Assembly: GCA_030038035.1 (NCBI GenBank)
Contig: JASHPP010000030.1
Span: 1 to 5,094 of the forward strand
From: Trebonia sp.
GTDB taxonomy: Bacteria; Actinomycetota; Actinomycetes; Streptosporangiales; Streptosporangiaceae
Direction: 5' to 3'
DNA: 5,094 nucleotides
Under the pieces are notes generated by a model, which was not told where the DNA came from, ran no database searches, and worked only from the letters and a program-made list of their open reading frames with translations. Position 1 is the stretch's first letter. Each line of letters opens with the position of its first letter. The translations under genes and the position numbers were made by a program. Below, piece by piece: positions 1 to 5,094 of this stretch.

Positions 1-164
1 AGGTCTACCTGGTACTCGGCGCCCCGGTACACCTCGGTGTGCCCGCGCTGCCTGCCGTATCCGCTCGCTTCACTGACTGTCATGCCGTGCACGCCGAATG
101 CCTGCAACGCTGCTTTGACATCGTCGAGTTTGAAGGGCTTGATGACAGCCGTAATGAGCTTCAT
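1..164 (-). CDS. glnB: P-II family nitrogen regulatory protein, N-terminal part (left-arm copy)
   Basis: This is the exact mirror of the gene at 4931-5094, where the protein is described. It starts with ATG at 164-162 on the - strand and runs off the window at base 1, keeping 54 full codons of the roughly 112 usual for P-II proteins. The N-terminal core, the T-loop sequence [12 protein letters not shown] and Tyr51 are present. The C-terminal half, with the rest of the nucleotide-binding site, is missing. Because the copy is identical to the right arm, I treat it as the same locus seen twice, not as a second paralogue. Confidence 0.9.
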
Positions 165-300
165 GTGACCACCTTCTCGTTCGCCTGCACCGACAATGCC
201 TTACAGGAGTTTCCTGCGTCCAGTCAGAATGTGTCCGGAACGTGAAACAGATGGCCCGTCTATTACGGCGGTGTTTCCTGCGCGGGTTAAGCGCCGCCGG
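165..300 (-). promoter_or_regulatory. ftsY to P-II gene spacer (left-arm copy)
   Basis: This is the mirror of 4795-4930. It holds the P-II ribosome binding site (about 169-177 on the - strand), two copies of the decamer CGCAGGAAAC read on the - strand (209-218 and 273-282) and a GAAAC half-site in the other orientation (244-248). See the right-arm entry for the interpretation as possible nitrogen control. No promoter is clear enough to mark. Confidence 0.35.
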
Positions 301-1509
301 TCAGCCGCCGAGGATCGCGTCGACGAACGTGGCCGGCTCGAACGGCGCCAGGTCATCCGGGCCTTCCCCGAGGCCGACGAGCTTCACAGGGACGCCGAGT
401 TCCCGTTGCACGGCTATCACGATGCCGCCCTTGGCGGTCCCGTCCAGTTTGGTCAGCACGATCCCGGACACGTCGACTACCTCGGCGAACACCCTGGCCT
501 GGCGCAGCCCGTTCTGGCCGGTGGTGGCGTCGAGCACGAGCAGCACCTCGTCTACGGCGGTGCGCTTCTCGACGACCCGCTTGACCTTCCCGAGCTCGTC
601 CATCAGGCCCGCCTTGGTGTGCAGGCGGCCGGCGGTGTCGATCACCACCACGTCGACCTCGGCCTCGATGCCCTTGCTCACCGCCTCGAACGCGACGCTC
701 GCCGAGTCCGCGCCCTCGACCTCTGACCTGACGACTTCGGCGCCCACCCGGTCCCCCCACGTCTGCAGCTGGTCCGCCGCGGCCGCGCGGAACGTGTCCG
801 CCGCGCCGAGCACTACCGACTCGCCGTCGCCGATCAGCGAGCGGGCGAGCTTGCCGCATGTCGTGGTCTTGCCCGTGCCGTTGACGCCGACCACGAGGAT
901 GACGGCGGGCCTGCCCTCGTGCCGATGGGTCCGCAGCGCGCGGCTGGCCGCGGTCTCCACCTGGGCGAGCAGTTCGGCCCTGAGCATCTCGCGCACCTCC
1001 TCAGGAGTCCGCGTCCCCTCGACCTTCACCTTGGTCCGCAGGTCCGAGACGATCTGCCTGGCGGGCGTCACCCCGACGTCGGCGGTGATCAGGACATCCT
1101 CGATCTCGTCCCACGTCTCGTCGTCCAGGCGATCCCTGGACAGCAGGCCAAGCAGCGCGGACCCGAAGCCGGTCTGCGATCTGGCCAGCCGCGACCGCAG
1201 CCGTACCATCCGCCCGGCCGAAGGCGGCGGCTTCTCCAGCGCCGGCTTCGGCGGCGCGGACGGCGCGGGGGACGGCGCGGGGGACGGCAGCGTCGCCGTC
1301 GTGCCGCCAGCCGCCGCGCCGGTTTCCGCTCCCGTCCCCGGCGGGCGGGTTCGGCTGTCGGTGGTCGTCCCCGTGCCGGATCCGGTCCCTAGATCGCGGT
1401 CCGCACGGCCACGGCGAACCCCGCGGGTGCCTCGCGGCCGCAGCAGCGTCGCCCCGCCGACGCCGACGATGAGCACCGCGAGCACGACGATGAGGATGAT
1501 GTATTCCAT
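301..1509 (-). CDS. ftsY: Signal recognition particle receptor FtsY (left-arm copy)
   Basis: This is a complete 402-residue FtsY, identical to the copy at 3586-4794, where motifs and domains are described. It starts at ATG 1509-1507 on the - strand and stops at TGA 303-301. The frame stays open upstream to 1782, but the extension has no recognisable sequence and would bury the N-terminal membrane segment, so the internal ATG is preferred. Several long open frames on the opposite strand here are shadows caused by the high GC content. Confidence 0.93.
   Translation of the reverse strand: MEYIILIVVLAVLIVGVGGATLLRPRGTRGVRRGRADRDLGTGSGTGTTTDSRTRPPGTGAETGAAAGGTTATLPSPAPSPAPSAPPKPALEKPPPSAGRMVRLRSRLARSQTGFGSALLGLLSRDRLDDETWDEIEDVLITADVGVTPARQIVSDLRTKVKVEGTRTPEEVREMLRAELLAQVETAASRALRTHRHEGRPAVILVVGVNGTGKTTTCGKLARSLIGDGESVVLGAADTFRAAAADQLQTWGDRVGAEVVRSEVEGADSASVAFEAVSKGIEAEVDVVVIDTAGRLHTKAGLMDELGKVKRVVEKRTAVDEVLLVLDATTGQNGLRQARVFAEVVDVSGIVLTKLDGTAKGGIVIAVQRELGVPVKLVGLGEGPDDLAPFEPATFVDAILGG
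1264..1287 (-). repeat. 12-base tandem repeat in the ftsY linker (left-arm copy)
   Basis: This is the mirror of 3808-3831: two exact tandem copies of CCGTCCCCCGCG on the - strand. They encode a Pro-Ser-Pro-Ala repeat in the disordered linker of FtsY. Confidence 0.85.
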
Positions 1510-3585: not shown

Positions 3586-4794
3586 ATGGAATACATCATC
3601 CTCATCGTCGTGCTCGCGGTGCTCATCGTCGGCGTCGGCGGGGCGACGCTGCTGCGGCCGCGAGGCACCCGCGGGGTTCGCCGTGGCCGTGCGGACCGCG
3701 ATCTAGGGACCGGATCCGGCACGGGGACGACCACCGACAGCCGAACCCGCCCGCCGGGGACGGGAGCGGAAACCGGCGCGGCGGCTGGCGGCACGACGGC
3801 GACGCTGCCGTCCCCCGCGCCGTCCCCCGCGCCGTCCGCGCCGCCGAAGCCGGCGCTGGAGAAGCCGCCGCCTTCGGCCGGGCGGATGGTACGGCTGCGG
3901 TCGCGGCTGGCCAGATCGCAGACCGGCTTCGGGTCCGCGCTGCTTGGCCTGCTGTCCAGGGATCGCCTGGACGACGAGACGTGGGACGAGATCGAGGATG
4001 TCCTGATCACCGCCGACGTCGGGGTGACGCCCGCCAGGCAGATCGTCTCGGACCTGCGGACCAAGGTGAAGGTCGAGGGGACGCGGACTCCTGAGGAGGT
4101 GCGCGAGATGCTCAGGGCCGAACTGCTCGCCCAGGTGGAGACCGCGGCCAGCCGCGCGCTGCGGACCCATCGGCACGAGGGCAGGCCCGCCGTCATCCTC
4201 GTGGTCGGCGTCAACGGCACGGGCAAGACCACGACATGCGGCAAGCTCGCCCGCTCGCTGATCGGCGACGGCGAGTCGGTAGTGCTCGGCGCGGCGGACA
4301 CGTTCCGCGCGGCCGCGGCGGACCAGCTGCAGACGTGGGGGGACCGGGTGGGCGCCGAAGTCGTCAGGTCAGAGGTCGAGGGCGCGGACTCGGCGAGCGT
4401 CGCGTTCGAGGCGGTGAGCAAGGGCATCGAGGCCGAGGTCGACGTGGTGGTGATCGACACCGCCGGCCGCCTGCACACCAAGGCGGGCCTGATGGACGAG
4501 CTCGGGAAGGTCAAGCGGGTCGTCGAGAAGCGCACCGCCGTAGACGAGGTGCTGCTCGTGCTCGACGCCACCACCGGCCAGAACGGGCTGCGCCAGGCCA
4601 GGGTGTTCGCCGAGGTAGTCGACGTGTCCGGGATCGTGCTGACCAAACTGGACGGGACCGCCAAGGGCGGCATCGTGATAGCCGTGCAACGGGAACTCGG
4701 CGTCCCTGTGAAGCTCGTCGGCCTCGGGGAAGGCCCGGATGACCTGGCGCCGTTCGAGCCGGCCACGTTCGTCGACGCGATCCTCGGCGGCTGA
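3586..4794 (+). CDS. ftsY: Signal recognition particle receptor FtsY
   Basis: FtsY is the membrane-associated GTPase that receives SRP (Ffh plus 4.5S RNA) carrying ribosomes with nascent membrane proteins and hands them to SecYEG. The protein has 402 residues. Residues 3-23 form one hydrophobic membrane segment, a usual actinomycete feature. A low-complexity Gly/Thr/Pro/Ala linker (about 25-95) follows. The N domain (about 98-190, with DDETWDEIEDVLITADVG) comes next, then the G domain. GTPase motifs are G1 GVNGTGKTT (208-216), G2 DTFRAAAADQL (238-248), G3 DTAGR (291-295), G4 TKLD (353-356) and the closing GLGEGPDDLAPF (379-390). The conserved LDATTGQNG is at 326-334. The DTFRAAAADQL and GEGPDDLAPF wording distinguishes it from Ffh, and there is no M domain. 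The ATG at 3586 is chosen because it places the membrane segment at the N-terminus; the frame is open further upstream without recognisable sequence. The gene appears intact. Confidence 0.96.
   Translation: MEYIILIVVLAVLIVGVGGATLLRPRGTRGVRRGRADRDLGTGSGTGTTTDSRTRPPGTGAETGAAAGGTTATLPSPAPSPAPSAPPKPALEKPPPSAGRMVRLRSRLARSQTGFGSALLGLLSRDRLDDETWDEIEDVLITADVGVTPARQIVSDLRTKVKVEGTRTPEEVREMLRAELLAQVETAASRALRTHRHEGRPAVILVVGVNGTGKTTTCGKLARSLIGDGESVVLGAADTFRAAAADQLQTWGDRVGAEVVRSEVEGADSASVAFEAVSKGIEAEVDVVVIDTAGRLHTKAGLMDELGKVKRVVEKRTAVDEVLLVLDATTGQNGLRQARVFAEVVDVSGIVLTKLDGTAKGGIVIAVQRELGVPVKLVGLGEGPDDLAPFEPATFVDAILGG
3808..3831 (+). repeat. 12-base tandem repeat in the ftsY linker
   Basis: Two exact copies of CCGTCCCCCGCG stand in tandem, followed by a decayed third start (CCGTCCGCG). 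They encode Pro-Ser-Pro-Ala repeats in the disordered linker between the membrane segment and the N domain. Such repeats vary by slippage and should tolerate length change. Confidence 0.85.
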
Positions 4795-4930
4795 CCGGCG
4801 GCGCTTAACCCGCGCAGGAAACACCGCCGTAATAGACGGGCCATCTGTTTCACGTTCCGGACACATTCTGACTGGACGCAGGAAACTCCTGTAAGGCATT
4901 GTCGGTGCAGGCGAACGAGAAGGTGGTCAC
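4795..4930 (+). promoter_or_regulatory. ftsY to P-II gene spacer with possible nitrogen-control half-sites
   Basis: These 136 bases contain the exact decamer CGCAGGAAAC twice (4813-4822 and 4877-4886). The first is followed after six bases by GTAAT (4829-4833) and the second after four bases by GTAAG. A third GAAAC lies on the other strand (GTTTC, 4847-4851). The actinomycete nitrogen regulator GlnR is known to bind alternating GTnAC and GAAAC half-sites about six bases apart. P-II genes are common GlnR targets, so the resemblance is suggestive, but no full two-box site is present. The second decamer also overlaps a small hairpin, CAGGA-AAC-TCCTG (4879-4891). TAATAG at 4830-4835 could be a -10 element, but no good -35 partner is visible. 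Confidence 0.35.
4918..4926 (+). promoter_or_regulatory. Ribosome binding site of the P-II gene
   Basis: AGAAGGTGG ends four bases before the ATG at 4931. It matches the 16S rRNA 3' end well and supports that start codon. The mirror copy is at 169-177 on the - strand. Confidence 0.7.
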
Positions 4931-5094
4931 ATGAAGCTCATTACGGCTGTCATCAAGCCCTTCAAACTCGACGATGTCAAAGCAGCGTTGCAGGCATTCG
5001 GCGTGCACGGCATGACAGTCAGTGAAGCGAGCGGATACGGCAGGCAGCGCGGGCACACCGAGGTGTACCGGGGCGCCGAGTACCAGGTAGACCT
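4931..5094 (+). CDS. glnB: P-II family nitrogen regulatory protein (GlnB/GlnK), N-terminal part
   Basis: P-II proteins are trimeric sensors of 2-oxoglutarate, ATP and ADP that control ammonium transport and nitrogen assimilation by binding partners such as AmtB. The first 54 residues are present: [17 protein letters not shown] (1-17) forms the first beta strand and helix. [12 protein letters not shown] (30-41) leads into the T-loop, and Tyr51 in [11 protein letters not shown] (42-52) is the conserved site of modification (adenylylation in actinomycetes studied). The gene is cut by the window end, losing about half of the usual 112 residues. It follows ftsY on the same strand after a spacer long enough for its own promoter. 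GlnB and GlnK cannot be separated on this fragment; actinomycetes with one copy usually call it glnK next to amtB. No amtB lies between ftsY and this gene here. Confidence 0.93.

Follow-up and report, generated by a model that had tools for sequence, protein, structure and literature searches.

A whole-contig palindrome carrying smc, ftsY and glnB is very probably an assembly self-join at a Gly-Pro-Ala tract of the Smc linker

Does a contig that reads the same on both strands record an inverted duplication in a genome, or the way in which the contig was assembled? This question is raised by the stretch of DNA analysed here (the window, 5,094 bases in all), which, compared over its whole length, is identical to its reverse complement without a single mismatch. 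The contig thus forms a single palindrome of 2 x 2,547 bases, in which the left arm (positions 1 to 2547, minus strand) is the mirror copy of the right arm (2548 to 5094, plus strand); the two arms are the same sequence and adjoin without a spacer, and both window ends fall at the same base of glnB. The initial annotation had described a perfect palindrome with no visible difference between the arms and with both ends cut at the same glnB base, and the exact self-complementarity bears out both statements. The window contains no N and has a G+C content of 69.7%; on base composition alone, 2,547 complementary pairs would arise by chance with a probability of about 10^-1378. The arm itself is an unremarkable, ordinary actinobacterial stretch, since perfect palindromes within one arm reach no more than 10 nt.

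The gene content proposed in the initial annotation, the 3' end of smc, ftsY and the 5' end of glnB, is upheld by the reading frames and by Pfam, which matched all three genes. In the right arm, the 3' part of smc (2548 to 3266, plus strand) is in frame from position 2550, ends at a stop at 3266, and comprises a linker remnant and the C-terminal ATPase half without the 5' part of the gene (SMC_N, 97.9 bits). It is followed by a complete ftsY of 402 aa (3586 to 4794, plus strand; SRP54, 238.7 bits; SRP54_N, 56.6 bits) and by the first 54 codons of glnB (4931 to 5094, plus strand; P-II, 58 bits), which starts at 4931 and runs off the window end 2 bases past codon 54. By symmetry, the smc tail, ftsY and the glnB start recur in the left arm as reverse-complement duplicates on the minus strand, at 1829 to 2547, 301 to 1509 and 1 to 164, respectively. 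No match to a structured RNA in Rfam reached the gathering threshold in the window.

One reading of this arrangement is that the organism carries a genuine, spacer-free inverted duplication of the smc(3')-ftsY-glnB(5') unit. In its favour, an identical FtsY is present on three contigs of a large protein collection, of which the window is the longest; that this longest listed contig measures 5,094 bases also supports the view that the window is a whole contig. However, most of the gene is missing from each smc copy, and glnB is truncated in each arm; a genuine duplication would therefore require intact copies elsewhere. The duplicated arms would also have to show no difference over 2,547 bases, although collapse in an assembly graph would hide small ones. 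The instability in bacteria of long palindromes without a spacer further counts against a duplication of this kind.

Relatives of the arm bear on the same reading. By FtsY, the best genome match is a Streptosporangiaceae metagenome bin (locus L001 of genome G001; 76%); closer FtsY proteins include four at 95% identity, the longest of whose contigs are merely 2.9-4.0 kb, and two at 84% that are named Trebonia sp. (P0017 and P0095). Trebonia is a genus of Streptosporangiales, and an actinobacterium close to it is the likely origin of the window. When 341 genomes from the family of G001 were searched with the arm, 340 gave matches at E <= 0.001, some of them to fragments alone. The order smc-ftsY-glnB is the same in the window's arm and in G001, G334 and G335, in which DNA identity to matching pieces of the arm is 77-88%. 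In contrast to the mirrored window, the native locus shows no mirror image in the fetched stretches and its smc frame stays open through the position that corresponds to the axis. We compared the smc linker across eight loci (L001, L117, L118, L120, L003, L089, L119 and L121). The frames that are open through the axis position measure, from stop to stop, 1,272 aa in L001 (G001), 1,279 aa in L117 (G334) and 1,285 aa in L118 (G335); those of L120 (G048) and L003 measure 1,402 and 1,499 aa, and L089 (G338), L119 (G336) and L121 (G195) run off the contig start inside smc, as does the contig of G002.

If the duplication were real, sharing of it with related genomes would support it without being strictly required. 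Among the 120 loci with a match, none carried the arm in both orientations within the fetched stretches (121 loci were fetched, some from the same genomes). The sole second copy in the fetched loci, in L055, spans about 160 bases of the glnB portion, and the 7, 7 and 8 matches listed for the whole genomes G001, G002 and G003, respectively, include no second copy. Since a real duplication needs intact smc and glnB elsewhere, 2.5 kb of arm with no visible divergence and the persistence of a palindrome, we strongly favour an artefact over a biological feature. We regard a genuine duplication of the unit as very unlikely, and its fully specified form, a real spacer-free and perfect inverted duplication of 2.5 kb that has its centre in the Smc linker and is accompanied by intact smc and glnB at other sites, as slightly less likely still.

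The gene context also bears on whether the axis could be a hairpin telomere, or a head-to-head junction of a linear replicon, that was read through as a palindrome. Replicon ends of these kinds do give palindromic reads. However, the axis falls within the smc frame, and the genes around it occupy internal positions on the long contigs of relatives; the smc-ftsY locus of G334, for example, is near 0.76 Mb of a contig of 1,889,528 bases (C11). We therefore rejected this explanation on gene context, and hold it to be the least credible of those considered here, with next to no chance of being correct.

Several observations made on neighbouring sequences are recorded for their own sake. Four Smc C-terminal pieces of 258-415 aa (P0136, P0145, P0212 and P0231) come from contigs of 211-709 kb and can be read as linker frameshifts, as choices of the gene caller or as truly split smc genes. 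An Smc protein named from Mycobacteroides abscessus (P0121, on a 206-kb contig) contains part of the C-terminal half twice in tandem. In a Glycomyces fuscus assembly, the contigs of L045 and L048 share an identical stretch of 13,173 bases around ftsY with 0 differences, and are either redundant contigs or a real duplication.

We examined the axis itself, at which a GGCC-rich core of 40 nt (2528 to 2567, with no strand assigned) is located. In the smc frame, the sequence across the axis encodes G-P-A repeats from the codons GGC or GGG, CCG and GCC, and one reading frame of the contig runs for 392 aa across the axis. In relatives, the axis position coincides with the hypervariable linker, which lies upstream of the conserved VPYVR...LGKVNPL stretch and, among the nearest relatives, is extended and highly variable. 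The axis sits in this (Gly-Pro-Ala)n tract of the linker, a plausible point of fold-back. The 50-nt strands beside the axis are predicted to fold at -17.4 and -19.6 kcal/mol, compared to -6.8 and -7.2 kcal/mol for two stretches elsewhere in the arm; measured against their own shuffled sequence, they fold not clearly better (z of -1.24 and -1.69). Elsewhere in the clade, linker expansions (L001, L117, L118 and L120; P0124-P0230) are rich in Ala, Pro, Glu and Gly and in short tandem repeats.

A tract of this composition could itself supply a palindromic seed, and we consider a native seed in the Smc linker possible. In simulated (GPA)n tracts of 4 to 10 units with the codon usage of the arm, palindromes of 22 nt or longer occurred in 2.7-10.4%, at about 5 to 12 times the frequency obtained when the same residues were shuffled, and palindromes of 40 nt in at most 0.33%. 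Among 164 fetched Smc tails, at least three tandem copies of a unit of 2-6 aa were found in the linker of 27, and a GPAGPA tract in none, several of these tails starting inside or after the linker. Palindromes of at least 22 nt were present somewhere in 15 of the 121 fetched loci. A native palindromic seed was not seen in the Smc linkers of relatives, where none of 88 linker stretches, some of them overlapping, contained a palindrome of more than 16 nt (longest 6-16 nt).

We assembled toy read sets with a de Bruijn approach at k = 21, 31, 39, 41, 55 and 77 in five cases, two of which (C and E) received four additional reads to cover the inner end. With no seed (case A), one ordinary contig was obtained. 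With a native 40-nt palindrome and the upstream sequence covered (case B), the contig broke at k of 21-41 and stayed intact at 55 and 77; with the same palindrome and the upstream sequence absent (case C), the contig came out palindromic, with 5,080-5,092 bases, for k of 21, 31, 39 and 41 but not for 55 or 77. Six fold-back reads in place of the native palindrome broke the contig at all six values of k when the upstream sequence was covered (case D), and gave a palindromic contig of 5,046-5,090 bases at all six when it was absent (case E).

Based on these results, we conclude that the window is very probably a whole contig formed by an assembly self-join, in which one smc-ftsY-glnB stretch became linked to its reverse complement at the GGCC-rich (Gly-Pro-Ala)n tract of the Smc linker. 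The seed would have been either a native palindrome long enough for the word length of the assembler or a few fold-back reads, and sequence upstream of the tract would have been lost or pruned. If a de Bruijn assembler produced the source assembly, as we infer, the sole unbranched path would then have been D'-P-D, with D the downstream arm and P the palindromic word. We directly observed the perfect symmetry, the axis in the tract, the gene order of relatives without the mirror image and the product of the toy assemblies; upstream loss is an assumption that a self-join needs, since cases B and D, with the upstream sequence covered, gave no full palindrome.

The toy assemblies also limit what can be read from the ends of the contig. 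When we simulated a genuine inverted duplication between different flanks, it too yielded a palindromic unitig, with the same symmetry and nearly the same length (5,096 bases), at k of 21, 31, 41, 55, 77 and 99. Since a real duplication gives the same kind of contig, end symmetry fits a collapsed inverted repeat in the assembly graph and does not by itself decide between a real and an artefactual origin. The initial annotation had taken the exact symmetry of the ends to mean that the contig is itself a palindrome and no random slice of a longer replicon; its artefact reading stands, and the end symmetry does not discriminate between the two origins. We also considered that the outer ends might lie at a branch point in conserved glnB, and rejected this since the last six 21-mers of the arm were found in 0 of 80 loci. 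Of the last 60 21-mers, 16 were found in at least one locus, compared to 355 of 2,527 along the whole arm; judged from these shared words, the outer end of the arm appears to lie near, and not in, shared sequence.

A fold-back during library preparation or amplification is a special case of the self-join, and its probability is included in that of the self-join. In this case, a 3' end in the GGCC-rich tract would have primed on itself or switched strands, and the assembler would have reported the resulting palindromic molecules faithfully. The tract can fold on itself, and the arm together with six fold-back reads gave the same kind of contig at all six values of k. Moreover, in amplified tardigrade DNA, palindromic reads are described as often making up more than one third of mitochondrial reads (PMC13265396). 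The report on multiple displacement amplification, in which 406 of 475 chimeras were inversions, points the other way, since these inversions typically carry an intervening deletion and self-priming by hairpins was excluded there as a major route (PMC1855051). The chimeras described in that report likewise join a sequence to an inverted neighbour; in contrast, the two arms of the window are identical in sequence, with neither a spacer nor a deletion between them. Thus, multiple displacement amplification, which the initial annotation had named as a cause, does not best account for a palindrome that lacks a spacer. We consider a library or amplification fold-back a real possibility with a somewhat less than even chance.

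Contigs like the window have been described elsewhere. In Mycobacterium bovis assemblies, 81 palindromic contigs were reported and judged a likely assembly error (PMC9455707); as in the window, the whole contig is described as one palindrome with reverse-complement gene duplicates, but these contigs are from another organism and from genome assemblies of one species. Palindromic contigs were likewise removed from single-cell cyanobacterial assemblies as very likely assembly artefacts (PMC12755884); these came from single-cell genomes. That whole-contig palindromes were judged likely errors in these two reports, as described there, adds to our reasons for favouring an artefact.

A second candidate for an Smc fold-back was found in a protein from another source, P0218, the first part of which resembles the antisense of its own later part. 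Over 121 residues, P0218 shares 60% identity with that half of the axis-crossing frame of the window which derives from antisense sequence. An exact palindrome can encode P0218 for 93 nt on each side of an axis; the corresponding length does not exceed 28 nt in any of 163 other Smc proteins and is 13 nt in one shuffle.

The assembly self-join that we favour makes the window a matter of data cleaning, as such contigs inflate gene counts. Palindromic contigs can also place false fused proteins in databases: the 392-aa frame across the axis could give rise to one, and P0218, a candidate of the same fold-back kind, is present in the protein collection that was searched. In de Bruijn assemblies, mirror-symmetric ends alone cannot separate an artefact of this kind from a real inverted duplication. 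If the duplication were true after all, it would be an unusually long stable palindrome for a bacterium.
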